Source: an uncultured Methylomonas sp. (GTDB lineage: Bacteria; Pseudomonadota; Gammaproteobacteria; Methylococcales; Methylomonadaceae). Taken from it: DNA of 64,000 bases. The notes beneath the pieces are model-generated. The model did not search any database and was not told the DNA's origin. It saw nothing but the letters and a program-made list of their open reading frames with translations. Location: positions 1-64,000 of the forward strand of contig CAKZJE010000033.1 of assembly GCA_936941155.1 (NCBI GenBank), written 5' to 3'. This document shows, in pieces, positions 5,218-38,500 of the stretch. Both the position numbers and the translations under genes were made by a program. The stretch's first letter is position 1, and each line of letters starts with the position of its first letter.

Positions 5218-6255
5218 ATGCTCAGTGAAAACAAAATGAATCAAAAGGTTGCTGCCATACTAATTAGCGTGTTGCTTGTGGGGTGCTTTGTGGTGTTGCG
5301 TCCTTTTTTTTCAGCGATACTGTGGGCAGTGATTTTATCGTTTGCAACTTGGCCTATTTATCAAACCATTGAACGTTTGTTAAGTGGAAAAAAAGCACTC
5401 GCAAGTTTGTTGATGATGTTGATAGTGGCAATGATTTTAGTGTTACCCTTTGTGGTGCTATGGTTGAGTTTTGCCGACACTATTACTGTTTTACTCGACA
5501 TGGTGCGGCAACTATTGAAAGAAGGTTTGCCATATCCACCTTCTTGGTTGATGCAAGTACCCGCTATCGGGGCAAAAGTGCATGATTATTGGCTATCTAT
5601 TGCAGGCAGCAGCAGTCAATTAACTGATTTACTGTCAAAATATTTATTCCCGCTGCGCGTATGGGCTGTGTCTGTGACAGCACACACCGGAGCGGGAATT
5701 GTGCATTTGAGTTTAACGCTGTTTTTAACTTTTTTTTGTTATCGTGATGGCGCGAGTTTAGCCGGAAAAATGGTAATGCTACTGCATCGAATAGGTGGTA
5801 ATACCGCGCTTGATTTACTTCATCTTGCAGGAGACACCGTTAAAAGTGTGGTCTATGGGATTATTGGCACTTCATTAGCACAAGGATTTTTGGCAGGTTT
5901 TGGTTTTCTAGTGGCGGGAGTACATAGCTGGTTGCTATTAGGTGCTTTAACCTGCTTGTTGTCTTTTATTCCTGTAGGTCCACCTTTGATTTGGATTCCT
6001 GTTGTTATAGGGTTATTTCAGCAAGGACAGATCGGCTGGGCTATTTTTTTAGGGATATGGGGGATCGGCGTAGTTAGTGCTATTGACAATGTACTTAAGC
6101 CTTATTTTATTAGTAAAGGGAGTAACTTACCTTTTATTTCAGTGTTTTTAGGTATATTAGGTGGTGTACTTAGTTTTGGTTTGCTAGGTATCTTTTTAGG
6201 CCCTGCTTTATTGGCAATTGCTTATCGCTTATTTCAAGAATGGGTCAAGGTATAA
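5218..6255 (+). CDS. AI-2E family (PerM/TqsA-like) membrane transporter
   Basis: This is a 345-residue polytopic membrane protein of the AI-2E exporter family (UPF0118). These proteins are linked to autoinducer-2 efflux or Na+/H+ antiport; the cargo here is unknown. Around eight hydrophobic segments are visible. The C-terminal block has SFIPVGPPLIWIP, IDNVLKPYFISKG and LGPALLAIAYRL, which is the family signature. An alternative start is the Met at 5236 (MNQKV), which would give a cleaner N-terminus. It follows the Ca2+ ATPase by 21 bp, so the two probably form an operon. Confidence 0.88.
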   Translation: MLSENKMNQKVAAILISVLLVGCFVVLRPFFSAILWAVILSFATWPIYQTIERLLSGKKALASLLMMLIVAMILVLPFVVLWLSFADTITVLLDMVRQLLKEGLPYPPSWLMQVPAIGAKVHDYWLSIAGSSSQLTDLLSKYLFPLRVWAVSVTAHTGAGIVHLSLTLFLTFFCYRDGASLAGKMVMLLHRIGGNTALDLLHLAGDTVKSVVYGIIGTSLAQGFLAGFGFLVAGVHSWLLLGALTCLLSFIPVGPPLIWIPVVIGLFQQGQIGWAIFLGIWGIGVVSAIDNVLKPYFISKGSNLPFISVFLGILGGVLSFGLLGIFLGPALLAIAYRLFQEWVKV

Positions 6256-6338: not shown

Positions 6339-6488
6339 GTATTTTTTAATACCTTGAAACTTATGTTCAATGAGTTATGTTTCACGTTTAAATAAAAACA
6401 GTAAACTTGTTTTAACTTTACTAAATCAATCAGTTATAAAAAAATCAATTTGAAAAGTATTCTTTTAAACTGTTGATTTTATTATCTG

Positions 6489-11615: not shown

Positions 11616-11892
11616 GTATATGACCTCTTTGGTTTGTGCAAAATGCCTTGTTATTTTACGGGATATTGCGCTTCAATATCACAGTTTAATTCAGATTTTC
11701 AGGCGATTAGCGTAAAAAACGCGCTCGTTATCTTCGCCAGAATGTAAAAAAAGCTTGCTAGACTAAGGGCTTAAAACCTATTCTGAAACAGCCCCTTTGC
11801 TACAGTGGCTGAAAAAATACTCATAAGGAATGAAATTTAAATAATTTATACATTTGCCGGAGTAAAAAAGCTTTAGCTTTTTACGAGTCACA

Positions 11893-12150
11893 GCCATAGC
11901 TATCTACACATCTTTAGTTTGAAAAATATTTATATATCAATGGGATATTGAAAATATGTAGGTTGGGTTAGCTACTTTTTTCGTCAGAAAAAAGAGCGTA
12001 ACCCAACAAAGTGCGTTTATTTTAACGCTGCATGTTGGGTTACGCTTATCTCGCTTCGCTCAATAACGCTAACCCAACCTACAAAAACCCTTTATTATCA
12101 ATGATTTTGTTATAAAAACCGTCAAACTATCTTGTGTAGATACTTATGGC
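11893..12150 (+). mobile_element. MITE family 1, copy B
   Basis: This is a non-coding element with inverted ends (GCCATAGCTATCTACACA at left, TGTGTAGATACTTATGGC at right). A central pair of GTAGGTTGGGTTAGC / GCTAACCCAACCTAC arms can fold into a long hairpin. It has the same orientation as copies at 1-143 and 13682-13974. It fills most of the gap before the CorA-like gene and supplies false coding sequence upstream of that gene's real start. Confidence 0.75.
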
Positions 12151-12257
12151 TAAAGCTATGGCACTCCTGCAAGACACATAAAGAAAAACCTATTAAATCT
12201 TATACTTACTATCTCTTAAGCCCACTTTTATCAAGTAATTACTTTTCCAACTTTACT

Positions 12258-13681: not shown

Positions 13682-13974
13682 ACGACTTGCAGTCCTCAAA
13701 GGCATAGGTATCTACACATCTTTAAACTAAAAAGTTATTTTATATCAATAAGATACATTGATATGTAGGCTGGGTTAGCTGCTTTTTTCGATAGAAAAAA
13801 GAGCATAACCCAGCAGCGGTTGTTTTAAAACGCTGAATGCTGGGTTACGATTATTTCGCTGTCGCTCAATAATCTAACCCAGCCTACAAATAATTCTTTA
13901 TTATCAATAAGTTTTAATAACATTGATGTTAAAAACTTGTGTAGATACCTATGCCTCAAAGGTCTGCCAGTCGT
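13682..13974 (+). mobile_element. MITE family 1, copy C (complete)
   Basis: This is the best-preserved copy, 293 bp. The inverted ends are about 37 bp: ACGACTTGCAGTCCT...GGCATAGGTATCTACACA at left against TGTGTAGATACCTATGCC...TCTGCCAGTCGT at right, with a few mismatches. Internal GTAGGCTGGGTTAGC / CTAACCCAGCCTAC arms form a hairpin. It lies between the CorA-like gene and the 3' end of the RND gene. No transposase is encoded. Confidence 0.8.
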
Positions 13975-13985
13975 TATACTGCGTA

Positions 13986-26560: not shown

Positions 26561-26604
26561 AATATTTGCAGTATAAAACAATATCGACTCTTGATGATAT
26601 TACT

Positions 26605-26644
26605 GCAAAAACTTTTCAAGACGACTGGTCGTCTTAAAAATTTC
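26605..26644. repeat. AAGACGACTGGTCGTCTT palindrome, copy 1
   Basis: GCAAAAACTTTTCAAGACGACTGGTCGTCTTAAAAATTTC has relatives at 38459-38500 and 61179-61219. The core AAGACGAC/GTCGTCTT is a perfect 8-bp arm. It lies just upstream of hrpA and shows that the open frame farther 5' is not coding. Confidence 0.75.
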
Positions 26645-26749
26645 AGAGCATTGAAACAATTGACAGGGTATATGCGTTTAAATTCATCTTTTAACGCTCT
26701 TACAGAGATTGAGTTAAAGTATAATCTTCTCATTTGCTTAAAGTTACGC

Positions 26750-29700
26750 ATGTCTACGCCTGATTCTCTCAAACAACTCTCCTCTCAACTTATCCGCTGC
26801 CTCAATCAAGACAGACATATTTTTAAACGCCAACTTGACCACCTGCGCCGCGATTATCAAAGCGGCAAAAATCCCGCCGATAAATTGGCGAGTTTAACTT
26901 CCCGCATTCAAACTTCCATCAGTAAATGCGAAGCCCGCCGCGCCAGCATTCCGGCTTTAGAATTTCCTGATTTACCCGTCACCGACAAAAAAGACGACAT
27001 CGCCGAACTTATCAAAAAAAATCAAGTTGTTATCGTTTGTGGTGAAACTGGCTCAGGTAAAACCACGCAATTACCGAAAATCTGTTTATCCATCGGGCGC
27101 GGCGTGTCGGGTTTTATCGGACATACGCAACCACGCAGAATCGCCGCTCGCACGGTTGCTGATAGAATTGCGGAAGAATTAGGGCAAAAAATCGGCGCGT
27201 CCGTTGGTTATAAAGTGCGTTTTCACGACAAAACCCACGAACAATCGCTGATTAAATTGATGACGGACGGAATTTTATTAGCCGAATCGCAAAACGACCC
27301 GTACCTGAACCAATACGACACCATCATCATTGACGAAGCCCACGAGCGCAGCCTGAACATTGATTTTTTAATGGGCTATTTAAAATGGTTGCTGCCAAAA
27401 CGCCCCGATTTAAAAGTCATCATCACCTCCGCCACCATAGACCCGCAGCGGTTTTCCAATCATTTCAACAACGCCCCGATTATCAACGTTTCAGGGCGCA
27501 CATATCCGGTGGAAATTCGCTATCGCCCGATTGAACAAAGCGAAGAGGACGACGAAACTACCGATGATTTGCAAAACGCGATTTTAGATGCGGTGGACGA
27601 GTTGTATCGGGATTTGCGCGGTGACATTCTGATTTTTTTAGCGGGCGAGCATGAAATCCGCGAAACCACTGAATCGCTGCGCAAACATCATCCCGCCAGT
27701 TGCGAAATTTTGCCGCTGTATTCCAAACTCAGCGTCAGCGAGCAAGAGCGCGTTTTCAAACCGTCCGGTAAAGTGCGGATTGTGTTGGCAACCAACGTGG
27801 CGGAAACTTCGCTGACCGTGCCGGGGATTCGCGGCGTAATTGACACCGGACACGCACGGATAAGTCGCTACAGCCATCGCAGCAAAATTCAGCGGCTGCC
27901 GATTGAAAAAATCTCTCAAGCCAGCGCGAATCAACGTTCCGGTCGCTGCGGACGGGTGGCGGAAGGGATTTGCATTCGTTTGTATTCGCCGGAAGATTTT
28001 GCCGCGCGTCCGGCTTTCACCGACCCTGAAATTTTGCGCACCAATTTATCGTCGGTGATTTTGCAAATGACGGCGTTAAAACTCGGTGATATTGAAGATT
28101 TCCCGTTTGTCGAACCGCCGGAAGACAAAATGATTCGGGACGGCAAGCTGGCTTTGCACGAAGTCAACGCGCTGGATAAGGAAGGCAAGCTTACCGAGGT
28201 TGGGCAAAAACTGGCGAAAATTCCCACCGATCCAAAACTGGCGCGAATGTTATTGGCGGCAGCAGAATGGAATTGTTTAACCGAAGTGGCGATTATTGTG
28301 GCGGGTTTGAGTGTGCAAGATCCGCGCGAAAAACCAGCGGATAAAATGCTACAAGCTGAGCAAAAACACGCCGCGTTTCGGGCGGATGATTCAGATTTCT
28401 TAACCTTTTTGAATATCTGGACGGCGGTTGAGGAGCAAAAAAAGCATCTTTCCAACAATAAATTGCGTAAATATTGCACGGATAATTTTTTATCGTATTT
28501 ACGAATGCGCGAGTGGCACGACATTCACACGCAAATTATGCAGGTGATTAAAGGTGAATTAAAACTTGCGACTAATTCCACGCCAGCCGGATATGATGCG
28601 ATTCACCGCTCATTATTGCCCGGTCTGTTGTCGAATATCGGTTTTCGCCATGAACAAAACGAATATCTTGGTACGCGCGGCTTGAAATTTTTCATTTTTC
28701 CAGGCTCTGGACAATACAAAGCCAAGCCCAAGTGGATGATGGCGGCGGAACAAGTGGAAACCAGCAAGGTTTACGCGCGAAATGTGGCGAAAATCGAGCC
28801 GGAATGGGTGGAATATTGCGCCGCGCATTTGATTAAGCAAAATTATTCTGACCCGCATTGGGAGAAAAAATCCGCTCGCAGCATGATTTCCGAGCGCACT
28901 TTATTATATGGGCTGACCTTGCAAGCGGGGCGCAAAATTCCGCATGACAAAGTTGACCCGAAAGCGGCGCGGGAGATTTTTATCCGCAGTGCGCTGGTCG
29001 AGCAGGATTATCACACCAACGCGCCGTTTTTCCGTGAAAATCAAAAGCTGCTGGAGGAAGTCGGTTATTTGCAACACAAAGAACGGCGCGTGGATTTGCT
29101 GGCGGATGAGGAATTTTTGTATCAGTTTTATCATGCCAAATTGCCGGAAACAGTTACGAATGGCGTGTTGCTCGACCAATGGCGCAAAAAAGCCGAGCGC
29201 GACAATCCGAAGATTTTATTTTTAACCAAAGAGGATTTAACCCGCGAATCGGTGTCTAACTTAAATGAATGGAATTTTCCCGACAGCAAAAAAATCGGGC
29301 GACTCACTATTCAATTGCAATATCGCTTTGAACCCGGACATGATGAAGACGGCGTAACCGCGATTATTCCGGTGCATCAACTCAATCAACTTTCTGAACA
29401 ACCGTTTGAATGGCTCGTGCCGGGATTGTTAGAAGAAAAAATTATCGCGCTAATTAAATCCTTGCCGAAACATAGCCGCAAACATTTTGTTCCCGTACCG
29501 CAAACGGCAAAAGCTTGTTTGGAAATTGAGCCGGATTTTAAAGGCTCGCTGTACGATTGGTTAGGCGGAAGATTGCGCAAACTCACGGGCGAATCTATCC
29601 CGCTCACTGAATGGAGTCCGGCATCGCTCTCGCCACATTTGAAAATGAATTATCGGGTGGTGGATGAAAGTGGCAAAGCGTTGGAATACGGGCGCGATTT

Positions 29701-30634
29701 GAAAAAATTGCAGGAAAAACATCAAACCACAGCGGGTGATAGTTTCGACCAAATCGCCGCAGAAGAACTCAATTACACCGCCTGCGTGGCATGGGCGTTT
29801 CCTGATTTGCCAGAAAATTATCAGTTTATTCAAAATAATCAGTCGTTTATTGGCTTTCCTGCGATGGTAGATGAAGGCGATGGCGTTGGGGTGAAAATTT
29901 TTGATACCGAAATCAAAGCGCGGTTGAATCACGAAGCCGGATTAACGCGACTTTTTGCCTTGCAATGCAGTAAAGAATGTAAATATTTAATCAAAAATAT
30001 GCCGCGTTTTCCTGCCGCTGAATTGCTTTATAGTCGTTTGCCAACGCATCCCTTATTAAAAGAACGCGCGAGTGTTTCGTTTAAAGAGGATTTAGTGCAG
30101 CAAGTAGTTTTTGCCAACTTTGTGGAGGGTAAAACCATTCGTACTCAAGCCGTTTTTGAAAAAAATTTAGCTGGATCAAAACCAAAATTGTTAAGTTTGG
30201 GCAATGAAACAGCGGCTTTATTGGATGACATTCTGGAGCGTTACGGCAAAATTAAAGCGGTTTTGGAGAAAGCGCAAGCTAAACCTGAATTATTGGCAGA
30301 TATTTCTGAACAATTAAGTATGTTGATTTATCACGGTTTTGTCAGATATACGCTGCTTGCCGCGTTAAAACATCTGCCGCGTTATTTGAATGCTATCGCG
30401 TATCGCTTGGAAAAAGGTGCGGTGGAAACGCCGAAAATGCAGGAATTTGCGCGTTATGGTTTGCGTTATTGGAAAGATGTGGAAAAGCGTGCGAAAAATC
30501 AAACCGTGTTGCCAGAGCGCGAGGCGTTTCGTTGGCATTTGGAGGAGTTTAGAGTTTCGCTGTTTGCGCAGCAGTTGAAAACGCCTTATCCGGTGTCGGC
30601 AAAGCGGTTGGATAAGGCGTGGGATGAGAAATAG
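26750..30634 (+). CDS. hrpA: ATP-dependent RNA helicase HrpA
   Basis: This 1294-residue DEAH-box helicase in E. coli processes mRNA and rescues stalled ribosomes. Walker A is GETGSGKTT (98-106), DEAH is at 195-198, SAT is in ITSATIDPQ, and motif VI is NQRSGRCGRV. The helicase-associated and OB-fold domains follow, then the long HrpA-specific C-terminal region (DUF3418) that includes NYRVVDESGKALEYGRDL. The start at 26750 matches the usual HrpA length of about 1300. The open frame before it crosses a palindromic repeat. The last third of the gene is duplicated at 34067-35347, and the final 47 bp are present again at 36200-36246. Confidence 0.93.
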   Translation: MSTPDSLKQLSSQLIRCLNQDRHIFKRQLDHLRRDYQSGKNPADKLASLTSRIQTSISKCEARRASIPALEFPDLPVTDKKDDIAELIKKNQVVIVCGETGSGKTTQLPKICLSIGRGVSGFIGHTQPRRIAARTVADRIAEELGQKIGASVGYKVRFHDKTHEQSLIKLMTDGILLAESQNDPYLNQYDTIIIDEAHERSLNIDFLMGYLKWLLPKRPDLKVIITSATIDPQRFSNHFNNAPIINVSGRTYPVEIRYRPIEQSEEDDETTDDLQNAILDAVDELYRDLRGDILIFLAGEHEIRETTESLRKHHPASCEILPLYSKLSVSEQERVFKPSGKVRIVLATNVAETSLTVPGIRGVIDTGHARISRYSHRSKIQRLPIEKISQASANQRSGRCGRVAEGICIRLYSPEDFAARPAFTDPEILRTNLSSVILQMTALKLGDIEDFPFVEPPEDKMIRDGKLALHEVNALDKEGKLTEVGQKLAKIPTDPKLARMLLAAAEWNCLTEVAIIVAGLSVQDPREKPADKMLQAEQKHAAFRADDSDFLTFLNIWTAVEEQKKHLSNNKLRKYCTDNFLSYLRMREWHDIHTQIMQVIKGELKLATNSTPAGYDAIHRSLLPGLLSNIGFRHEQNEYLGTRGLKFFIFPGSGQYKAKPKWMMAAEQVETSKVYARNVAKIEPEWVEYCAAHLIKQNYSDPHWEKKSARSMISERTLLYGLTLQAGRKIPHDKVDPKAAREIFIRSALVEQDYHTNAPFFRENQKLLEEVGYLQHKERRVDLLADEEFLYQFYHAKLPETVTNGVLLDQWRKKAERDNPKILFLTKEDLTRESVSNLNEWNFPDSKKIGRLTIQLQYRFEPGHDEDGVTAIIPVHQLNQLSEQPFEWLVPGLLEEKIIALIKSLPKHSRKHFVPVPQTAKACLEIEPDFKGSLYDWLGGRLRKLTGESIPLTEWSPASLSPHLKMNYRVVDESGKALEYGRDLKKLQEKHQTTAGDSFDQIAAEELNYTACVAWAFPDLPENYQFIQNNQSFIGFPAMVDEGDGVGVKIFDTEIKARLNHEAGLTRLFALQCSKECKYLIKNMPRFPAAELLYSRLPTHPLLKERASVSFKEDLVQQVVFANFVEGKTIRTQAVFEKNLAGSKPKLLSLGNETAALLDDILERYGKIKAVLEKAQAKPELLADISEQLSMLIYHGFVRYTLLAALKHLPRYLNAIAYRLEKGAVETPKMQEFARYGLRYWKDVEKRAKNQTVLPEREAFRWHLEEFRVSLFAQQLKTPYPVSAKRLDKAWDEK

Positions 30635-30663
30635 TCTTTGTAATCTATGACCTAGTTGATTTA

Positions 30664-30687
30664 GTTCCCACGCGGGCGTGTGGGAAC
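30664..30687. repeat. GTTCCCACGC...GTGGGAAC REP-like palindrome
   Basis: GTTCCCACGCGGGCGTGTGGGAAC is a single unit of the same REP family that ends the RAYT element at 33285-34060. It lies 30 bp after hrpA. Confidence 0.75.
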
Positions 30688-30770
30688 GAGAGAAGCCTTC
30701 CTCAAGATTGCCTTATCAGTTGTTTCGTTTTATCCTGTTTGCATAACAACACTTCCCTTACCTATTTTAT

Positions 30771-32675
30771 ATGGCTCGCTCCCTTAATCCCTACATCGCT
30801 GGCAATCCGGTCGGCAACAGCAATGCCTTTATCGGTCGAGCTGATATTGTCCGCGAAGTGCTGCATATTTTCGCCCGTCGCGAAGAAAACGCCCTGGTGT
30901 TATACGGTCAGCGGCGGATTGGCAAAACCTCTGTTTTACAGTTTTTAAAGAAAACCTTAGCGCAGGAAACCGCGACCGGACATTATTTTCCGGTGTATTT
31001 TGATTTGCAGGACAAGGCGACTTTCGCGTTGGGTGATGTGCTGAAAGATTTAGCCAGCACCATTGCCAATGAGTTAGGTTTTCCCGCGCCGCAATTAGGT
31101 GATAATCCTGAGCATGTTTTTCAATATGAATGGTTGCCGCAACAGCTTGAAAAATTGGCAAAAGGCGCGGCGTTGGTGTTGCTGTTTGATGAGTTTGATG
31201 TGTTGGCGGCGGAATCGGCAAAAGGTGCGGGAGCAGATTTTTTCCCGTATTTGCGCAAATTGATTGCCAGTGACAGGCAACGGCTGAATTTTGTGTTTGT
31301 GATTGGGCGTAACGTCAATGATTTGAACACGATTGCGCTGTCACTTTTCAAGGGCATTACCGCGCGGCGGGTGTCGTTGTTGGGCAAAGAAGATACGTTT
31401 GCTTTGATTCGTTTGGCTGAAAAAACCAGTCCGTTGCGTTGGAGTGCCGAGGCGTTGGAGCGAATTTGGCAATTGACGAATGGTCATGCGTTTTTTACCC
31501 AGCAACTGTGTTCGTTTGCTTGGGAAGAGGCTTATGACGATGGCGATTTTGAAACTGAGGAAATTAGCGCAAGCGTTGTTGAGCGTGTGGTTGATGATGC
31601 GTTAGGCGCGGCGCGGAATGCGTTTGAGTGGTTGTGGGATGGGTTGCCGCCTGCGGAGCGCGTGGTTTCTGCGGCGTTGGCGCAAGCGGGTGGCAAAGCG
31701 GTGACTGAGACAGAATTGGAAAAGTTGCTGCATGAAAGTGGGGTGCGGATTGTGATTCGGGAGTTGCAGGACGCGCCTAAGTTGTTGCAAGAGTGGGATT
31801 TGTTAGAGCCAGTGGATGGTGGTTTTCGGTTTCGGGTGGAATTGTTGCGGCGGTGGGTTGAAGAGAATAAGCCGTTGCGCAGGGTGCAGGATGAGTTGGA
31901 TAGGATTGAGCCTGTGGCGGAGAGTTTGTTTCAGGCGGCGCAGGGGTTGTATAAAAATACCCAATTGGATGCGGCGGAAAATTTGTTGCGGCAAGCGATT
32001 GGAATTAATCCTAATCATGTGAAAGCGAATAAATTATTAGCAGATATATTTTTGGCTAATCGAAATTATGATGAAGCTAGAAGCTTATTAATTAGATTAT
32101 ATGAATATCAACCAATGGAGGCTCGTTCCCGGCTAATTCAAGCATGGCTTGGGTTAGCATCGTCAGCAGGTGATAACGACGAAAAATTGAGTTGTTACGA
32201 AGAAATTTTTAAGATTGATTTTAATCAAAGTGAGGCAAAAAAAGCTTATATAACTATTTGGGAAACAAGAGGTGATGGCGCGTTAGAAAAAGGACTGATT
32301 TCGTATGCTCTGGAAGCATATAAAAAAGCAGGAAAAAATGAAAAAGTTGTCCATGTGGAAAACGAAATTCGAGAAACCGAAGTAAAAAAACAACTTGAGA
32401 TTTTGGAATCGTTGAAACAAGAAAAAAAATATACTGAGGCGTTTGAATTAATTAAAAATATTGAAACTGATTTTCCTGAGCTTCTGGATTGGAATAACGA
32501 AAAGCAGAAAATTGAGCTATTGATTACGATAACAACCCATTATGAGCAAGGAATTGATGCGCTAAAATTAAATAAAAAGAAACAAGCGCAAGAACTATTG
32601 GCGAAGGTAATTTGTATTAATCCTGAATTTGAAGAAGCCGCCAGTTATTTATGTCTCGCGTTACAAATGATATAA
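30771..32675 (+). CDS. STAND/ORC-like ATPase with C-terminal TPR repeats
   Basis: This 634-residue protein has a P-loop NTPase domain: Walker A GQRRIGKTS (46-54), Walker B VLLFDEFDVL with D140-E141, then a winged-helix region (about 270-375). That layout fits archaeal-type or nSTAND ATPases. From about residue 385 there are tetratricopeptide-like repeats (AAENLLRQAIGINPNHVKANKLLAD; AQELLAKVICINPEFEEAASYL). The first two thirds use GC-rich codons. From about 32025 codon use turns AT-rich, suggesting a mosaic gene. The 3' end overlaps a membrane PDZ gene by 25 bp, implying a coupled pair. STAND proteins are often signal-sensing or defence switches; the role here is inferred only. Confidence 0.75.
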   Translation: MARSLNPYIAGNPVGNSNAFIGRADIVREVLHIFARREENALVLYGQRRIGKTSVLQFLKKTLAQETATGHYFPVYFDLQDKATFALGDVLKDLASTIANELGFPAPQLGDNPEHVFQYEWLPQQLEKLAKGAALVLLFDEFDVLAAESAKGAGADFFPYLRKLIASDRQRLNFVFVIGRNVNDLNTIALSLFKGITARRVSLLGKEDTFALIRLAEKTSPLRWSAEALERIWQLTNGHAFFTQQLCSFAWEEAYDDGDFETEEISASVVERVVDDALGAARNAFEWLWDGLPPAERVVSAALAQAGGKAVTETELEKLLHESGVRIVIRELQDAPKLLQEWDLLEPVDGGFRFRVELLRRWVEENKPLRRVQDELDRIEPVAESLFQAAQGLYKNTQLDAAENLLRQAIGINPNHVKANKLLADIFLANRNYDEARSLLIRLYEYQPMEARSRLIQAWLGLASSAGDNDEKLSCYEEIFKIDFNQSEAKKAYITIWETRGDGALEKGLISYALEAYKKAGKNEKVVHVENEIRETEVKKQLEILESLKQEKKYTEAFELIKNIETDFPELLDWNNEKQKIELLITITTHYEQGIDALKLNKKKQAQELLAKVICINPEFEEAASYLCLALQMI

Positions 32676-33271
32676 ACGAGGCAAGACGTGCTATTTTCAG
32701 GGCTAATGAATCCCTTAAAATTCAAACAGCAGACAAAAAAGCTCTCTTAGAAAAAACTAAAAAGAAGAAAAGCAGCATTGTTTGGATTTCACTTGTAGTA
32801 ATCAGTGTGATGGTAGTTATCTTTCTCGTGTTTCGAGATTCAAAAAATCCACTTGGGAATTCTCCATCCATTGCCAAACCTGATGTTGAGAACAAATCGA
32901 ATGACAAGGTTGCTATTCCAGATAAAGCATGGTTAGGCGTAGAGTATCAAGAAATGACATCTGAACTTGCGAAGTCTTCTGGAATAAAAACAGCCCAGGG
33001 TGTTAAGGTGGTTGGAGTTATCCTTGATAGTCCAGCCGCTCAAGCTGGAATTCAAATTAATGACATTATTATTGAATTTAATGGGCAACAAATTAATAAT
33101 GACGGGGAAAATTTTCTGGACATGATTCAAGCATCTCCTATTAATGGGAAAGCTACTCTAAAAATTATTCGTCAAGGCAAAAGCAAAACCGTTGATTTTA
33201 AAGTAGGGCTTCGCCCAAATCAGTATAAAATTGAGATTAAACCAAACGTTGAACTAACTACCACTAAGTAG
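32651..33271 (+). CDS. Single-pass membrane protein with PDZ domain
   Basis: This 206-residue protein has a charged N-terminal cytoplasmic segment (1-42) ending in KKTKKKK. One membrane helix follows (SIVWISLVVISVMVVIFLVF, about 43-62). After a low-complexity linker comes a PDZ domain (about 95-190: AWLGVEYQEM, VVGVILDSPAAQAGIQINDIIIEFNGQQI, KATLKIIRQGK). The PDZ domain resembles those of HtrA/DegP, but no protease domain is present. It would sit outside the inner membrane and bind protein termini. Overlap with the ATPase gene and shared AT-rich codon use suggest the two act together. Confidence 0.78.
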   Translation: MSRVTNDINEARRAIFRANESLKIQTADKKALLEKTKKKKSSIVWISLVVISVMVVIFLVFRDSKNPLGNSPSIAKPDVENKSNDKVAIPDKAWLGVEYQEMTSELAKSSGIKTAQGVKVVGVILDSPAAQAGIQINDIIIEFNGQQINNDGENFLDMIQASPINGKATLKIIRQGKSKTVDFKVGLRPNQYKIEIKPNVELTTTK

Positions 33272-33284
33272 TCAATTTCACCTC

Positions 33285-34060
33285 GTTCCCACGCGCTGCG
33301 TGGGAATGCAGTTCAGGCGTGCTACGCCGTCTCCCTCGCACCGCAGCGCGGTACTACGGCATTCCCACGCGGCGCGTGGGAACAAGAAAATATTATCATC
33401 AGGAATCAACCATTATGGGACGCAGCCGCTATTCCATCCGTGAAACAGAAGCACCGCACTTTTTAACCTGCACCGTTATCAACTGGATGCCACTGTTTAC
33501 GCGCCCGCAAACCGTTAATATCATTCTCAGTGCGTTACAATATCGCCAAGAAAATCAAGGTTGGAAAATCTACGGCTACGTCATTCTGGAAAATCATCTG
33601 CACCTCATCGTACAAGCAGAAAATTTACGCGCCGAATTGCCGCTGTTTAAATCCTACACCGCAAGACAACTGATTGATTACCTAAAAGAATGCCGCGCCG
33701 AACGACTGCTGAAACAAATGGCGTTTTTTCGTAAAGCGCACAAAACCGACAGAGAATATCAATGCTGGGAAGAAGGCTCGCATCCGCAGCTTATCCAAAA
33801 TGCAGAAATATTACGGCAAAAACTAGATTACATTCACTTTAACCCCGTGAAAAGAGGCTATGTGGATGAGCCGTGTCACTGGCGATATTCCAGTGCCAGA
33901 AATTATGCAGGCTTGCAAGGCTTGATACCGATTTATAGGGATTGGTAGACGCTTTCACCTTGTTCCCACGCGCTGCGTGGGAACACAGTAACACCGCGCT
34001 GCGGTGCGAGAAACAGGGCGTAGCACGCCGACACTGCGTTCCCACGCGGCGCGTGGGAAC
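33285..34060 (+). mobile_element. RAYT element with ~99-bp inverted BIME ends
   Basis: Each end is a pair of GTTCCCACGCGC-type palindromes around a 50-bp spacer: left 33285-33383, right 33962-34060. The right end is the reverse complement of the left over nearly all of its length, including spacer blocks GGCGTGCTACGCC and CTCGCACCGCAGCGCGGT. The only gene inside is the tyrosine transposase at 33415-33948. The whole unit is 776 bp. The right border abuts the truncated hrpA copy within 6 bp. Confidence 0.82.
33415..33948 (+). CDS. REP-associated tyrosine transposase (RAYT, Y1 HUH family)
   Basis: This 177-residue HUH endonuclease, of the IS200/IS605-related TnpA_REP family, nicks and mobilises REP palindromes. 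The metal-binding HLH is at 61-63 (ENHLHLIV), and the catalytic Tyr is Y139 in DYIHFNPVKRGYVD, both intact. The start at 33415 is preceded by AGGAA. An open frame upstream runs through the palindromes and is not credible. The gene lies between inverted BIME ends, its probable substrates. Confidence 0.9.
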   Translation: MGRSRYSIRETEAPHFLTCTVINWMPLFTRPQTVNIILSALQYRQENQGWKIYGYVILENHLHLIVQAENLRAELPLFKSYTARQLIDYLKECRAERLLKQMAFFRKAHKTDREYQCWEEGSHPQLIQNAEILRQKLDYIHFNPVKRGYVDEPCHWRYSSARNYAGLQGLIPIYRDW

Positions 34061-34066
34061 GAGAAA

Positions 34067-35347
34067 GCGATTATTCCGGTGCATCAACTCAATCAACTCA
34101 GCGAGCAGCCGTTTGAATGGTTAGTGCCTGGGCTGTTAGAAGAAAAAATTATCGCTCTTGTTAAATCGCTACCAAAACACAGCCGCAAACATTTTGTTCC
34201 CGTGCCGCAAACCGCAAAAGCCTGTTTGGAAATTGAACCGGACTTTAAAGGCTCTTTATATGAATGGTTGACTAATCGGTTGCGCAAACTGACAGGCGAA
34301 TCTATCCCGCTCACTGAATGGAGTCCAGCTTCTTTATCGCCGCATTTGAAAATGAATTATCGGGTGGTGGATGAAAGCGGCAAAGCCTTGGAATACGGAC
34401 GCGATTTGAAAAAATTGCAGGAAAAACATCAAACTACCGCAGGCGATAGTTTCGACCAAATTGCCGCAGAAGAACTTAATTACACCGCTTGCGTGGCGTG
34501 GGCGTTTCCTGATTTGCCAGAGAATTATCAGTTTATTCAAAATAATCAGTCATTTATCGGTTTTCCAGCGATGGTGGATGAAGGCGATAGCGTTGGCGTG
34601 AAAATTTTTGATACGGAAATCAAAGCGCGACTCAATCACGAAGCTGGTTTAACACGCCTTTTTGCCTTGCAATGCAGCAAAGAATGTAAATATTTAATTA
34701 AAAATATGCCGCGTTTTCCTGCTGCTGAATTGCTCTACAGTCGTTTGCCAACGCATCCCTTATTAAAAGACCGCGCGAGTGTTTCGTTTAAAGAAGATTT
34801 AGTGCAGCAAGTGGTTTTTGCCAACTTTGTGGAAGGCAAAACCATTCGCACACAAGCCATTTTTGAACAAACGTTGAGCGAATCAAAACCAAAACTGTTA
34901 AGTTTAGGTAATGAAACAGCGGCGTTGTTGAATGAAATCATGGAGCGTTACGGCAAAATCAAAACGACTTTGGAGAAAGCGCAAGCTAAACCTGAATTAC
35001 TGGCAGATATTTCTGAACAATTGAACGTTTTGATTTATAACGGTTTTGTCAGATATACGCCGCTTGCTGCGTTAAAACATCTGCCGCGTTATTTGAATGC
35101 TATTGCGTATCGCTTGGAAAAAGGCGCGGTGGAAACGCCGAAAATGCAGGAGTTTGCGCGTTATGGTTTGCGTTATTGGAAAGATGTGGAAAAAAGAACG
35201 AAAAATCAAACCGTGTTACCGGAGCGCGATGCGTTTCGTTGGCATTTGGAGGAGTTTCGAGTTTCATTATTTGCGCAACAATTGAAAACGCCTTATCCGG
35301 TTTCGGCAAAACGGCTGGATAAGGCGTGGGATGAAAAGAATAGCTGA
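34067..35347 (+). pseudogene. hrpA 3'-fragment (second copy of C-terminal third)
   Basis: From 34067 the sequence matches hrpA from 29360 to its end, about 1275 bp. The translated parts differ at only about 22 of 425 residues, while many codons differ silently. No frameshift or internal stop is present. It lacks the helicase domains and begins exactly where the RAYT element ends. A short open frame through the BIME could give it an ATG at 34004, but this is unlikely to be functional. The 3' end differs slightly from hrpA (three extra bases before the stop). Confidence 0.85.
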
Positions 35348-35352
35348 GTGTT

Positions 35353-35382
35353 ATTTTAAACAATGAGGATTTTAAATTATGA
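35353..35382 (+). repeat. Remnant of an rpn-type gene end
   Basis: ATTTTAAACAATGAGGATTT followed by TAAATTATGA closely matches the last codons of the nuclease gene at 36141-36169. Translated, it reads ILNNEDFKL-stop against NLNNEDFEND-stop. It is therefore probably the tail of a lost tandem nuclease gene. It also provides the region just before the next start. Confidence 0.55.
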
Positions 35383-36173
35383 AACAAGTCGCTTCTTTAC
35401 AATACGGTGTAATTTTTAAAAAAGCTTTTGGACAAGTGGATATATTCAAAGCTTTTGTGAAAGACATTATCGGCATTGACTTAGAAATTGATAAAGTCGA
35501 AACTGAAAAAACATTCACGCAAAAAATTGGTAATGTGAAAGTAGAATTTGATTGTTATGCTGAAGATAAAAAAAACCGCGTCATTGTTGAAATTCAACAC
35601 AATAACGACCCAGACCATTATGACCGTTTTTTACATTATCATTGTGTCGCATTATTGGAACAAGCCGAGAATTATAAAAACTATCGTCCCAATTTAACCG
35701 TTTATACGATTGTTGTTTTAACGTCAGGGGATAAACATAAAACGGATATTGCAACCATTGATTTTGACCCTCGTGATAAATACGGCAAAAAATTAAATGA
35801 AATTCATCATAAAGTGATTTATTTAGCCGCTAAATATGTCGATAAAAATACGCCTGAACTTTATCAAGAATGGTTGCGTGTCATTAATGAAAGTTTAACT
35901 GAAACGATTGATGAGTCACAATATTATCGCCCCGAAATACAAAAAACAATTTCGTCCATTGAAAAGAATTTAATTACGCCTGAAGAACGTTATTTTATGA
36001 TTGAGGAATACAAGCTTAAAGAAAGAATTGCGCAAGGTCAGCTTAATACTAAAAAAGAAATTGCTAAAAATTTGTTAGCAATGGAGTTGAGCTTAGAGGC
36101 TATCGAAAAGGCAACAGGTTTAACGCCTATTGAAATTGAGAATTTAAACAATGAGGATTTTGAAAATGATTAA
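35379..36173 (+). CDS. Rpn-family PD-(D/E)XK nuclease/transposase
   Basis: This 264-residue protein belongs to the recombination-promoting nuclease (Rpn/PDDEXK transposase-like) family. It begins ASLQYGVIFKKAFGQ, and the nuclease core is KVEFDCYAEDKKNRVIVEIQ with D58, E71 and Q73. These proteins cut DNA and promote RecA-independent recombination in E. coli; many are variable and mobile. It is flanked by an rpn-tail remnant upstream and an hrpA-tail remnant downstream. The C-terminal part is helical with low complexity. Confidence 0.82.
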   Translation: MKQVASLQYGVIFKKAFGQVDIFKAFVKDIIGIDLEIDKVETEKTFTQKIGNVKVEFDCYAEDKKNRVIVEIQHNNDPDHYDRFLHYHCVALLEQAENYKNYRPNLTVYTIVVLTSGDKHKTDIATIDFDPRDKYGKKLNEIHHKVIYLAAKYVDKNTPELYQEWLRVINESLTETIDESQYYRPEIQKTISSIEKNLITPEERYFMIEEYKLKERIAQGQLNTKKEIAKNLLAMELSLEAIEKATGLTPIEIENLNNEDFEND

Positions 36174-36199
36174 AGTCAAAAAAACGCGCAACACAAAAA

Positions 36200-36246
36200 A
36201 CGGCTTATCAGGTTTTGGCAAAACGGTTGGATAAGGCGTGGGATGA
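36200..36246 (+). repeat. Third copy of the hrpA 3' tail (47 bp)
   Basis: The segment ends TTGGATAAGGCGTGGGATGA and matches hrpA 30581-30627 at 42 of 47 bases, and the second copy at 35288-35334 similarly. It lies between the nuclease gene and the HEPN-motif gene. It marks another boundary of a segment inserted after hrpA. Confidence 0.75.
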
Positions 36247-36279
36247 TAGAAATTAAAAATTATTACTGAGGTAAAGTTT

Positions 36280-37560
36280 GTGCCTTTAATGCAAGATATA
36301 GAAGATATTATAAAATTTAAATTAATGTTAGATTTTATTGAAATCACATTAATTCAGCAATGTGAAAAAAATCCTAAAGTCTATAGAGGAGCGGGGAGTA
36401 TATTCCAAGATAACAAAGGACACATTCAGTTAAAAATGTATGTTAAAGATTTTAGTCAGTTTACTGATTTGCCAAAGCATAACTCTCGTGTATTAGTTGA
36501 AGATTCTAATTTATTTTATTTAGAAGCAACAGATACGACAGGTATAAAATGGAAAGCAAAATATTTACATCTTAAACGTGGAAATATAATTACCGCAGAA
36601 ATTTTTAATCTCGAACAGATTTATGAACATTCAGAAAATTTTAAGGAATTAAAAGCACAATTTTATATTCTTGGGAAATATGATTTTCCATTTAATGAAT
36701 ACAAAGTTACGGAATATGAAAGCTCTCTTACTATCTGTAAATTTAAAACCGATTACTTTGATTGTGAAATAGATCAACATGATAAATATATGGATGTTTT
36801 TATTTTAACAAAAGAAAGTAATGATTTTAACTTGCTAATAGATTTGATTATCGAAGCCCTTAGTATTATTACAGGGCATTATTTACAACCACTTATAAAA
36901 ATGACTGAAAGTAAAAACATTCAGCTCTTGGAATTATATTCACATCGTCTGAAACAAGATGAAAAAAAACTTAACCCTCCAATATCTACTCATGTATTCG
37001 ATAAAATTGAAGACTTAAAAGAGTTTATTCATTGTTATGTTACTAAATTTAAAGAGAAACGAAGTCACTTTTTCAAATCGTGGTATCGCAATTTTTTGGA
37101 GTCTCAAGGTTTGTATATCAATCAAGCTCTTGTTTTAACAGTTTCCATTGAAGGTATTTTAAAAGAGTATTTTTCCGATACAACACCTGTTGATAATACT
37201 GCTAAAATATCTACACTAGAAGAAATAGAAAAGATTTCTATTGATGAAACAATTTTTAATGATATAAAAAACTATCTCACAAAACCCAAAGAACCTAATT
37301 TGCAAAAACGATTGAAAAAATTAGTTAAAGATGATGTTATTAGCGAGGATTTATTCAAAATATGTTTAGAAATAAGAAATTATTCTGCTCACGCTGATAA
37401 AATAGTAATGGACAGTAAAAAAACAAATATGCAAAAAATAATTTATGAAATAGATGCGTGTTTAGAGTTATTCTATTTACTTCTTTTTTATTATATTGGG
37501 TATAAAGGTAGACATATTGAATATTCCAATAATGCAAAATTTGACCGGTCAGCCCAATAG
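36280..37560 (+). CDS. HEPN-motif protein, unknown; candidate abortive-infection RNase
   Basis: This 426-residue protein is very AT-rich in codon use. A GTG start at 36280 has GAGGT 7 bp upstream. Residues about 1-200 look like a beta-rich domain, similar in layout to ApeA-type N-domains. The C-terminal half is helical and carries LEIRNYSAHADK, that is R366-N-Y-S-A-H371, the Rx4-6H catalytic motif of HEPN ribonucleases. HEPN proteins of this layout act in anti-phage abortive infection. No antitoxin or partner is adjacent, so the defence role is inference. The gene's 3' end runs into a direct repeat shared with 38299-38394. Confidence 0.6.
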   Translation: MPLMQDIEDIIKFKLMLDFIEITLIQQCEKNPKVYRGAGSIFQDNKGHIQLKMYVKDFSQFTDLPKHNSRVLVEDSNLFYLEATDTTGIKWKAKYLHLKRGNIITAEIFNLEQIYEHSENFKELKAQFYILGKYDFPFNEYKVTEYESSLTICKFKTDYFDCEIDQHDKYMDVFILTKESNDFNLLIDLIIEALSIITGHYLQPLIKMTESKNIQLLELYSHRLKQDEKKLNPPISTHVFDKIEDLKEFIHCYVTKFKEKRSHFFKSWYRNFLESQGLYINQALVLTVSIEGILKEYFSDTTPVDNTAKISTLEEIEKISIDETIFNDIKNYLTKPKEPNLQKRLKKLVKDDVISEDLFKICLEIRNYSAHADKIVMDSKKTNMQKIIYEIDACLELFYLLLFYYIGYKGRHIEYSNNAKFDRSAQ

Positions 37561-37645
37561 GATGAGCCGAACAAAGGGAGGCGCATCTTGCTTGATTAAT
37601 GCGCTTCCTTACGTCAGCGGCATCCTACATAAAATTACAGGCAAC
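37550..37645 (+). repeat. 96-bp direct repeat, left of HigBA
   Basis: The segment from CAGCCCAATAGGATGAGCCG to CAGGCAAC is repeated at 38299-38394 with about ten changes and the same length. It contains an internal hairpin, GGCGCATCTT...TTAATGCGCTTCC. The pair encloses the HigBA module exactly. The left copy overlaps the last 11 bp of the HEPN-motif gene. Confidence 0.85.
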
Positions 37646-37695
37646 GAGCTTTTGATTAATTGTCCAAATGTATCCTGCGGAATACAATAGAGTGT

Positions 37696-37995
37696 ATGAA
37701 ATACACATTGCAAAAAACAGAAACCTTTAGCCAATGGCTTGATAAGCTCAAAGACCCTGTTGTCCGAAACAAAGTGTTGACGCGGCTTGACCGTGCAAGT
37801 AACGGCAACTTTGGCGATTACAAAGTATTGACACCTAACGTGTCGGAATTGCGTTTTACATTCGGCGCGGGTTTGCGGGTCTATTACACGGTGAAAAAAA
37901 ACCACGTCATTTTATTATTGGCAGGTGGCAACAAATCAACCCAACAGCGCGATATTGAAAAAGCCATAGCCCTTTTTAACGTATTGGAGTCTTAA
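37696..37995 (+). CDS. HigB/RelE-type toxin (Gp49-like)
   Basis: This 99-residue protein has the RelE-superfamily fold typical of ribosome-dependent mRNA interferases: ETFSQWLDKLKDPVVRNKVLTRLDRASNGNFGD, ELRFTFGAGLRVYYTV and HVILLLAGGNKSTQQRDIEKA. The Met at 37696 is chosen because the family starts with MKYTL-like residues. The antitoxin gene follows by 2 bp, the toxin-first order typical of HigBA. Confidence 0.88.
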   Translation: MKYTLQKTETFSQWLDKLKDPVVRNKVLTRLDRASNGNFGDYKVLTPNVSELRFTFGAGLRVYYTVKKNHVILLLAGGNKSTQQRDIEKAIALFNVLES

Positions 37996-37997
37996 TT

Positions 37998-38291
37998 ATG
38001 AGCGAAGAAATTACCTCTTTTGATGTAGCAAGTTATCTTAAAACGGATGAAGACATTCGTATTTTTTTGAAGGAGGCTGTGGAAACTGGAACAACAGCGG
38101 ATTTTATTCACGCGCTGAATACAGCGGTTCGGGCAAAAGGCATGTCTGAAGTGGCTAAAAAATCCGGCGTAACTCGTGCCAGCCTGTATAAATCGTTGTC
38201 AGAAACAGGCAATCCCCGTTTTGATACCATCAACAAAGTGTGCCTCGCGCTGGGCGTAAAGTTGTCTATTGAGGATGCGCTTCCTACTTGA
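37998..38291 (+). CDS. HigA-type antitoxin with HTH domain
   Basis: This 97-residue protein has FDVASYLKTDEDIRIFLKEAVETG. A helix-turn-helix follows (GMSEVAKKSGVTRASLYKSLSETGNPRFDTI), ending in LGVKLSIEDA. It is the standard addiction-module antidote and likely represses its own operon. It lies 2 bp after the toxin gene. Confidence 0.9.
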   Translation: MSEEITSFDVASYLKTDEDIRIFLKEAVETGTTADFIHALNTAVRAKGMSEVAKKSGVTRASLYKSLSETGNPRFDTINKVCLALGVKLSIEDALPT

Positions 38292-38298
38292 TTAAGCA

Positions 38299-38394
38299 CA
38301 GCCCGATAGGATTTGCCGAACAAAGGAAGGCGCATCTTCCGTGATTAATGCGCTTCCTTACGTCAGCGGCATCCTACACAAAACCACAGGCAAC
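38299..38394 (+). repeat. 96-bp direct repeat, right of HigBA
   Basis: This is the second copy of the segment at 37550-37645. The 412-bp gene-free interval 38292-38703 holds this copy and one AAGACGAC palindrome. The remaining AT-rich stretch probably carries the promoter of the DUF1800 gene. Confidence 0.85.
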
Positions 38395-38458: not shown

Positions 38459-38500
38459 GAAAATTTTCAAGACGACCAGTCGTCTTGAAATTTTTTTTGC
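38459..38500. repeat. AAGACGACCAGTCGTCTT palindrome, copy 2
   Basis: TTTTCAAGACGACCAGTCGTCTTGAAA is a perfect arm pair. It matches 26605-26644 and 61179-61219. The T-rich flank could let it act as a terminator for the HigBA transcript. Confidence 0.75.

Follow-up and report, generated by a model that had tools for sequence, protein, structure and literature searches.

Several described systems resemble the arrangement found downstream of the housekeeping gene hrpA in the stretch of DNA analyzed here, which comprises the first 64,000 nucleotides of contig CAKZJE010000033.1 from an uncultured Methylomonas sp. (hereafter the window). Insertion with long target duplication was reportedly introduced by Nobusato et al. 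in 2000 and the minimal mobile element by Saunders and Snyder in 2002, while homology-facilitated illegitimate recombination, said to have been described by de Vries and Wackernagel in 2002, combines one homologous arm with one non-homologous joint in transformation. According to excerpts of two reports, insertion with long target duplication occurs with restriction-modification genes in Helicobacter pylori (PMC3031569, PMC1643837). In the excerpted part of another source, the minimal mobile element is characterized by content that differs between two conserved genes (PMC8627216). Among merodiploids formed by transformation of Streptococcus pneumoniae, as far as the excerpt goes, incoming DNA that is half repeat and half unique triggers duplication via alternative pairing (PMC3784515). 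Additionally, sections of a report on rpn genes describe their independent acquisition at one chromosomal place, with rpnC inserted between panC and panD (PMC5350276).

Compared with these systems, the 3' end of hrpA appeared to be a place where accessory DNA had entered by homologous recombination with no integrase involved, and repeated rounds would have produced chains of displaced gene tails; this reading is, on balance, probable. The kind of event is already known, and its recurrence at hrpA seems to be new. As far as the open-licence literature searched goes, the repeated occurrence at a single housekeeping gene in four genera, the polarity observed in one case, and the treatment of gene tails as fossils were new, and no title on a hotspot at the hrpA 3' end was found among the matches listed.

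The window is located in a 206,933-base contig of a genome designated G000. A DNA search of the whole 4.26-Mb assembly for the hrpA tail listed three matches, which correspond to copies 1, 2, and 3 in the window (Table 1). The first-pass annotation had recorded these three tails as copies of the hrpA 3' end and had assigned copy 2 a length of 47 bp. All three positions were recovered, copy 1 being the end of the full-length gene, but copy 2 (A2) comprised the last 1,271 bp of hrpA, and an open copy of this length with 90% identity could hardly be equated with copy 3, a relic of about 60 bp. The part of the resident gene that is present twice (A1) and A2 shared 1141 identities with 128 mismatches over 1269 aligned bases, with four gap positions, and the pair formed the longest same-strand repeat (1,273 bp, the next being 288 bp) in a blastn self-comparison of the window. 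The A2 frame is open over 447 codons, begins outside the hrpA homology, and encodes the C-terminal domain DUF3418 (PF11898, E 1.1e-119). Copy 3 was matched at 36197-36253 (88%, E 5.6e-12) in the assembly search and reached 36186 when aligned to copy 2. Its best match outside its own genome, among the loci compared, was a tail on contig C43 of genome G002 (87% over 62 bp), although a stretch of about 60 bp is too short to name a donor. The hrpA gene itself was matched in 40 of the 41 genomes searched, including its own.

The divergence between the long copies had accumulated under purifying selection, which indicated that they were imported from related bacteria and not duplicated where they lie. 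Overall, the long copies were 6-12% divergent, with a synonymous divergence (dS) of 0.27-0.49 and a ratio of nonsynonymous to synonymous divergence (dN/dS) of 0.07-0.16. For A1 and A2, dS was 0.49, dN was 0.038, and the ratio was 0.077, while the ratio was 0.164 for the pair in G143 and ranged from 0.074 to 0.119 among the pairs in G134. Since a fragment without a gene start should gain amino-acid changes freely, most divergence of the kind seen between A1 and A2 probably arose while both were parts of functional hrpA genes in separate lineages.

These values also bear on strict insertion with long target duplication, in which the insertion of an accessory block would itself duplicate the target, the hrpA 3' end, on the spot. 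As in that system, accessory and often restriction-modification genes are found between long variable direct repeats derived from the target (1,271 bp in G000, 1,396 bp in G143, and at least 993 bp in G134), and the pattern around restriction and other genes matches the one given in the H. pylori excerpts (PMC3031569, PMC1643837); the long copies are also largely open frames. However, the process would leave repeats that are alike and free to decay, whereas the hrpA repeats have diverged under selection and one of them is phylogenetically foreign in G143, which argues for import by recombination. A single gene, hrpA, is moreover involved here across several genera. An origin by long target duplication is accordingly regarded as quite unlikely, and in-place duplication in general is disfavored by the dN/dS values and the G143 phylogeny.

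Import by homologous recombination could be followed along the hrpA gene of G143. The 5' part of this gene grouped with that of the sister genome G176 (tree support 97/99), and the resident gene remained at a p-distance of 0.04-0.13 per 40 codons from G176 up to about residue 1115, beyond which the distance was 0.13-0.34. The downstream copy, in contrast, stayed within 0.025-0.09 of G176 beyond the same residue and was also close to the other species. In an approximately unbiased (AU) test of grouping with G176 over the last 169 codons, a stretch picked after the break near residue 1115 had been seen, the resident tail was rejected (p 0.0025) and the copy was not (p 0.43). The resident 3' end of G143 is phylogenetically foreign, and its downstream copy is native-like.

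A different trace was found in G134, where the 558 bp directly after the hrpA tail of contig C47 share 95% identity with the stretch that follows hrpA in the sister genome G079. The resident hrpA of G134 is followed by a XamI system without a match in the G079 flank. The match of contig C47 to G079 continues for 36 bp within the next G079 tail and then ends, which would fit a further exchange through an older tail. The downstream comparison was restricted to within a genus, because the gene order 3' of hrpA differs widely between genera. The same open reading frame (ORF) of 152 aa was observed upstream of an hrpA copy or relic in G143 (contig C3) and G134 (contig C91), and a YefM/ParE-type pair downstream of a tail was common to contig C3 of G143 and contig C47 of G134; this sharing suggests that part of the tail chain was inherited within the genus.

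Repeated copies, constrained divergence, a resident tail that is foreign in G143, a G134 tail with the sister flank, and varied cargo are observed, and the following course of events is proposed. DNA of a related bacterium would enter, likely by transformation, carrying a 3' part of the donor hrpA followed by donor accessory genes. The donor part would recombine with the resident hrpA, leaving a whole gene that ends in the donor version; the phylogeny supports such an end in G143, and for the window the donor version may be either of the two copies. At its other end, the incoming DNA would have no partner in the recipient and would be joined non-homologously inside the 3' half of the recipient hrpA, sometimes beside a repetitive extragenic palindrome (REP), REP adjacency being seen at three of the 11 junctions. 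The old tail, long and open at first, would be left downstream without a gene start and would shrink by decay to tens of base pairs; tails of graded length are seen, and their order in time is inferred. Such rounds may repeat, perhaps sometimes from inside an older tail copy, resulting in chains of tails and accessory genes.

This course shares with homology-facilitated illegitimate recombination a homologous arm on one side and a non-homologous joint on the other. One-sided homologous exchange was evident from the identity break and the AU test in G143, rather than from the window. Whereas that process belongs to the bench, here it would have acted in natural genomes and in chained events at one gene. 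Similar to the minimal mobile element, a conserved gene appeared to provide a homology arm for variable accessory genes, and the block in the window contains no integrase; in contrast to it, the content at hrpA seems to be added, with the old gene end remaining as a copy. The varying content and the lack of a detected integrase agree with an element that has no mobility of its own, yet the window block holds a gene for a REP-associated tyrosine transposase (RAYT). The S. pneumoniae merodiploids likewise start from incoming DNA that is part repeat and part unique, but in the excerpt they are tandem duplications of about 100-900 kb of the recipient chromosome rather than gene ends beside new genes (PMC3784515). 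The panC-panD case resembles the window in the acquisition of an rpn gene at one chromosomal place, and copies of host-gene tails are not mentioned in the parts of the report covered (PMC5350276).

The recurrence of the tails was surveyed by searching the last 46 HrpA residues against 201 genomes of the methanotroph family, with complete counts per genome; the relatives found by sequence were mostly methanotroph metagenome-assembled genomes. At least one match was found in 185 genomes and more than one in 12, which are spread over four genera (G000, G002, G079, G086, G103, G125, G134, G143, G147, G152, G159, and G164). The surroundings were inspected for the 11 multi-match genomes other than G000, the second match being placed in all but G164. 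In G143, G079, G103, G125, and G159, as in G000, the extra tail and hrpA share a contig, the tail lying 3' of the gene. In G134, an hrpA copy cut by the contig end lies downstream on the hrpA contig, and more copies or tails are found on two other contigs. Additionally, fragments from inside the hrpA 3' half lie 1.8 kb downstream of the gene in G015, which has a single C-terminus match. The copies start at about residues 720, 799, 882, 922, and 1199, and several start from 1288 to 1329 (contig-cut copies left out). The initial proposal of repeated insertion at, or recombination with, the hrpA 3' end is therefore retained in the form of recurrent recombination, while a single fixed insertion point does not agree with the differing copy starts. 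On contig C22 of G152, which is not the contig of hrpA, a stretch of about 70 bp resembling the hrpA tail was observed three times (5014-5082, 5696-5764, and 6361-6429) at a spacing of about 665-682 bp.

The genes beside the tails were diverse. In G143, a 756-aa protein with weak P-loop similarity is followed by the 1,396-bp hrpA copy (88%); its gene was considered as a candidate integrase and rejected, as Pfam, NCBIfam, and PADLOC gave only weak P-loop/GTPase similarity. The hrpA copy of G134 (93.5%), which measures at least 993 bp, comes after three genes, two of which encode a XamI-type restriction enzyme (PF09572, E 1.4e-112) and a methyltransferase. In G103, hrpA is separated from a decayed copy by a gene whose product has an HsdR N-terminal domain. 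A RAYT-like gene lies between hrpA and a 62-bp tail in G125, and a gene resembling the DUF1902-matching gene of G134 before a 78-bp tail in G079, while a RAYT-like fragment follows hrpA in G159. In G001, which belongs to the same genus as the window, the hrpA match is followed after 13 bp by the start of a gene for a restriction-helicase (PADLOC Type IIG model E 2e-154, PF13156, PF04851), and no second hrpA tail match was found by the C-terminus search. In three genomes of one genus (G103, G086, and G147), an hrpA 3' relic was observed to adjoin two similar ORFs of about 100 aa and 557 aa. This arrangement lies downstream of hrpA in G103, but in G086 and G147 it is not on the hrpA contig; the same inner part is missing from the relics of G103 and G086.

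Genomes without a second tail match were also identified. In the genus designated g14, a single hrpA is followed by a yhdP-like gene in G170 (PF13116) and G057, and by a similar gene slightly further on in G111; none of the three had a second tail match, the flank being read for 1.5 kb after hrpA. Together with the G079 flank that matches contig C47 of G134, these may represent insertion-free sites in relatives, none of them from the window's species. The genes neighboring the C43 tail of G002, sought as a site without that tail, lie on different contigs or apart in G000 and G001. Variable gene content, which the first-pass annotation had proposed to look for between tails, was found beside hrpA among G000, G001, G134, G143, and G103, and a uniform arrangement in all relatives is contradicted by G111, G170, and G057. 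The proposed resemblance to a defence island held in part: restriction-type genes are present in G134, G103, and G001, but so are RAYT, PDZ, and DUF1902 genes, and no strong match was returned by PADLOC for the four window proteins scanned (best E 3.2e-05).

Several points limit the case for entry by recombination at hrpA. The enrichment of hrpA tails over two control genes speaks for this entry but was modest: more than one match to the C-terminal 46 residues was found in three of the 201 genomes for PurB and in two for DnaE, and for the 12 of 185 matched genomes of hrpA the one-sided Fisher p was 0.015 against PurB (3/188), 0.005 against DnaE (2/187), and 0.0015 against both pooled (denominators being genomes with a match), while the control queries score below the hrpA query, may miss short fragments, and are few. 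A HrpA segment just upstream of the A2 start also had more than one match in five of the 201 genomes (G134, G143, G123, G191, and G209), the loci being inspected for the first two. The flanks of hrpA vary on both sides in genus g14, where 12 genomes were set up for comparison and the similar among the usable pairs numbered 16 of 55 upstream and eight of 45 downstream. In G002, G086, G147, and G152, the extra tail is on a contig other than that of hrpA, and in G002, G086, and G152 the hrpA contig ends within 1 kb of the gene, so that these tails may lie at any distance from hrpA and may need a further step.

The remaining points concern the individual cases. Low dN/dS would also be compatible with two fragments that are both translated and selected. 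The native-like copy of G143 was not resolved as the sister of G176, and from the copy start to the break (about residues 841-1120) the two copies of G143 show 5-14% difference per 40 codons. A single exchange predicts near identity there, so that two or more events, or a less simple route, would be needed. The array of G134 is split over three contigs and its order is deduced. A1 and A2 of the window are about equally far from G002 (dS 0.93 and 0.87), which does not tell a native from a donor copy. The ComEC family was above its cut-off in all seven genomes searched, which says little, because 12 of 14 control genomes (E. coli included) also matched it, five of them over the cut-off.

The short tails raise the alternative that a tyrosine or serine recombinase integrates DNA site-specifically at the 3' end of hrpA and that the tails are its attachment sites. 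Several short copies (about 57-98 bp) end near the hrpA stop and contain an inverted repeat, seen by eye in G000 (CCTTATCC..GGATAAGG), as is often the case for attachment sites in gene 3' ends. However, this repeat is not kept in G015 (by eye), the copy starts range from residue about 720 to about 1330, and no tyrosine or serine integrase was found by profile searches among the window genes scanned, nor a recombinase among the scanned proteins of G134, G143, and G103; an ORF after hrpA in G086, from cargo beyond those scanned, is IS3-like by eye only. Such integration is considered very unlikely, and an integrase-type island was rejected, as the genes scanned included no integrase and the varying starts define no fixed attachment core. 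The tails might instead belong to co-occurring strains that were misjoined during assembly or binning, since most genomes are drafts and the hrpA contigs end less than 1 kb past hrpA in G002, G164, G152, and G086. Against such an artefact, the 206,933-base contig carries window copies that are differently flanked, and the short-tail form is also found in G125, a genome of three contigs listed as 100% complete; this explanation is most improbable.

The joints themselves were compared by inspecting 11 copy starts for inverted repeats. A REP-like palindrome ends about 5 bp before copy 2 in G000 and 4 bp before the 62-bp tail in G125. On contig C43 of G002, a palindrome ends 44 bp before the tail, and the repeat containing it, which also follows the resident hrpA, ends about 17 bp before the tail (the latter by eye). 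The three tail-adjacent palindromes differ in sequence. These adjacencies, together with the RAYT-like gene of G125 and the RAYT-like fragment of G159, would be expected if a REP-RAYT-REP element or its REPs mobilized or broke hrpA 3' DNA, so that the tails were by-products of REP transposition. In contrast, the other eight of the 11 copy starts, including those of the long G143 and G134 copies, had no inverted repeat of at least 9 nt within 50 bp (some weak ones were 52-115 bp away), and neither the restriction genes nor the foreign resident tail of G143 would be explained. To our knowledge, RAYT genes have not been shown to move themselves. With adjacency at three of 11 junctions only, RAYT or REP activity was rejected as a general cause and is unlikely as the source of the tails. 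A role of REPs as joints is a lead, counted without a computed chance expectation. A non-homologous joint in homology-facilitated illegitimate recombination often has a few shared bases; the junctions were listed, and donor sequence is needed to judge such bases.

A more elaborate possibility is that methanotrophs have in the 3' end of hrpA a dedicated site of gene capture, where accessory genes with an hrpA tail would form cassettes added serially, REPs (perhaps with RAYT or Rpn) would supply the breaks or joints, and each unit would carry an end that keeps hrpA intact; this is distinctly doubtful. Rpn nucleases overproduced in E. coli raise RecA-independent recombination, according to sections of one report (PMC5350276), while the excerpt of a later one describes Rpn as toxin-antitoxin and anti-phage proteins, with no evidence of transposition (PMC10327210).

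Within the window, domain and family matches confirmed the genes that the first-pass annotation had named between the tails, namely an ATPase, a PDZ protein, and a RAYT, followed by an Rpn nuclease (Table 1). Of the genes it had placed after copy 3, the HigBA-type pair was recovered above the cut-offs, while the HEPN gene had a match below threshold only.

Table 1. Positions of hrpA, its tail copies, and the accompanying genes and repeats in the window.
Feature	Position	Strand	Evidence or remark
hrpA, full length (resident copy)	26591-30634	+	ORF of 1347 aa; TTG start called mechanically, real start may be further in
A1, twice-present part of resident hrpA	29360-30630	+	90% identical to 34067-35337
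REP-like palindrome	30664-30687		Inverted repeat; begins 30 bases past the hrpA stop codon
AAA/nSTAND2-like ATPase with TPR repeats	30771-32675	+	PF13401 E 2e-08, PF20702 E 1.1e-06, PF14559 E 5.5e-11
PDZ-domain protein	32651-33271	+	PF13180 E 3.6e-13; match to DegP model TIGR02037 below cut-off
Left REP palindrome pair	33285-33383		33285-33307 and 33361-33383
RAYT	33415-33948	+	NF047646 E 3.8e-28, 98.2 bits, cut-off 80
Right REP palindrome pair	33962-34060		33962-33984 and 34038-34060; ends about 5 bp before A2 start
A2, hrpA 3' copy 2	34067-35337	+	1,271 bp, open frame, without hrpA start
Likely 3' remnant of a second rpn gene (reads LNNEDFK)	35355-35376	+	95% over 22 bp to 36143-36164, the rpn end; upstream of intact rpn
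Rpn-family PD-(D/E)XK nuclease	35379-36173	+	PF12784 E 1.1e-10; TIGR01784 63.4 bits, cut-off 52.1
hrpA 3' copy 3, short relic (about 57-63 bp)	36184-36253	+	DNA search and alignment
Accessory gene, weak HEPN_Apea similarity	36280-37560	+	PF18739 E 8.6e-4, 20.2 bits, below cut-off 24.4
Toxin-antitoxin pair	37660-38291	+	RelE/ParE-type toxin 37660-37995, antidote 37998-38291; TIGR02683, TIGR02684 above cut-off
Right flank of the region			DUF1800 gene and following genes

The combination of a curated-family RAYT with REPs on both sides was found in segment 33285-34060 only and is not a property of the tail copies generally; the palindrome pattern around the RAYT had a mean of 0.00 in shuffled sequence. 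The Rpn protein had 18 matches in its own genome, counting itself as well as partial and distant ones. These were observed on contigs C34, C32, C79, C77, C117, and others, where several adjoin one another, in keeping with the likely rpn remnant beside the intact gene in the window. The RelE/HigA-type pair is bracketed by 96-bp direct repeats (37550-37645 and 38299-38394, 91% identical), as if it were a separate movable unit. The region as a whole is framed by a 37-nt inverted repeat (26607-26643 and 38461-38497, 92% complementary) that is itself nearly palindromic (AAGACGAC..GTCGTCTT), with one arm near the start of the hrpA ORF and the other just past the toxin-antitoxin pair. Its short words were considered as DNA uptake sequences, and the 8-mer occurred seven times in the window over both strands. 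A dispersed repeat was also present at 1-151, 11888-12166, and 13696-13982, with aligned pieces of 125-288 bp at 78-94% identity.

The entry of accessory and defence genes without an integrase is hard to trace, since an exchange by homologous recombination is often scarless. Where the end of a housekeeping gene has been displaced, the tail would be a scar, indicating where and how often DNA entered, and any genome can be screened for such tails. If the polarity found in G143, with a foreign resident end and a native downstream copy, is general, the donor lineage and the relative date of one import could be read from each long tail pair, and gene trees built on the 3' part of hrpA would be misleading.

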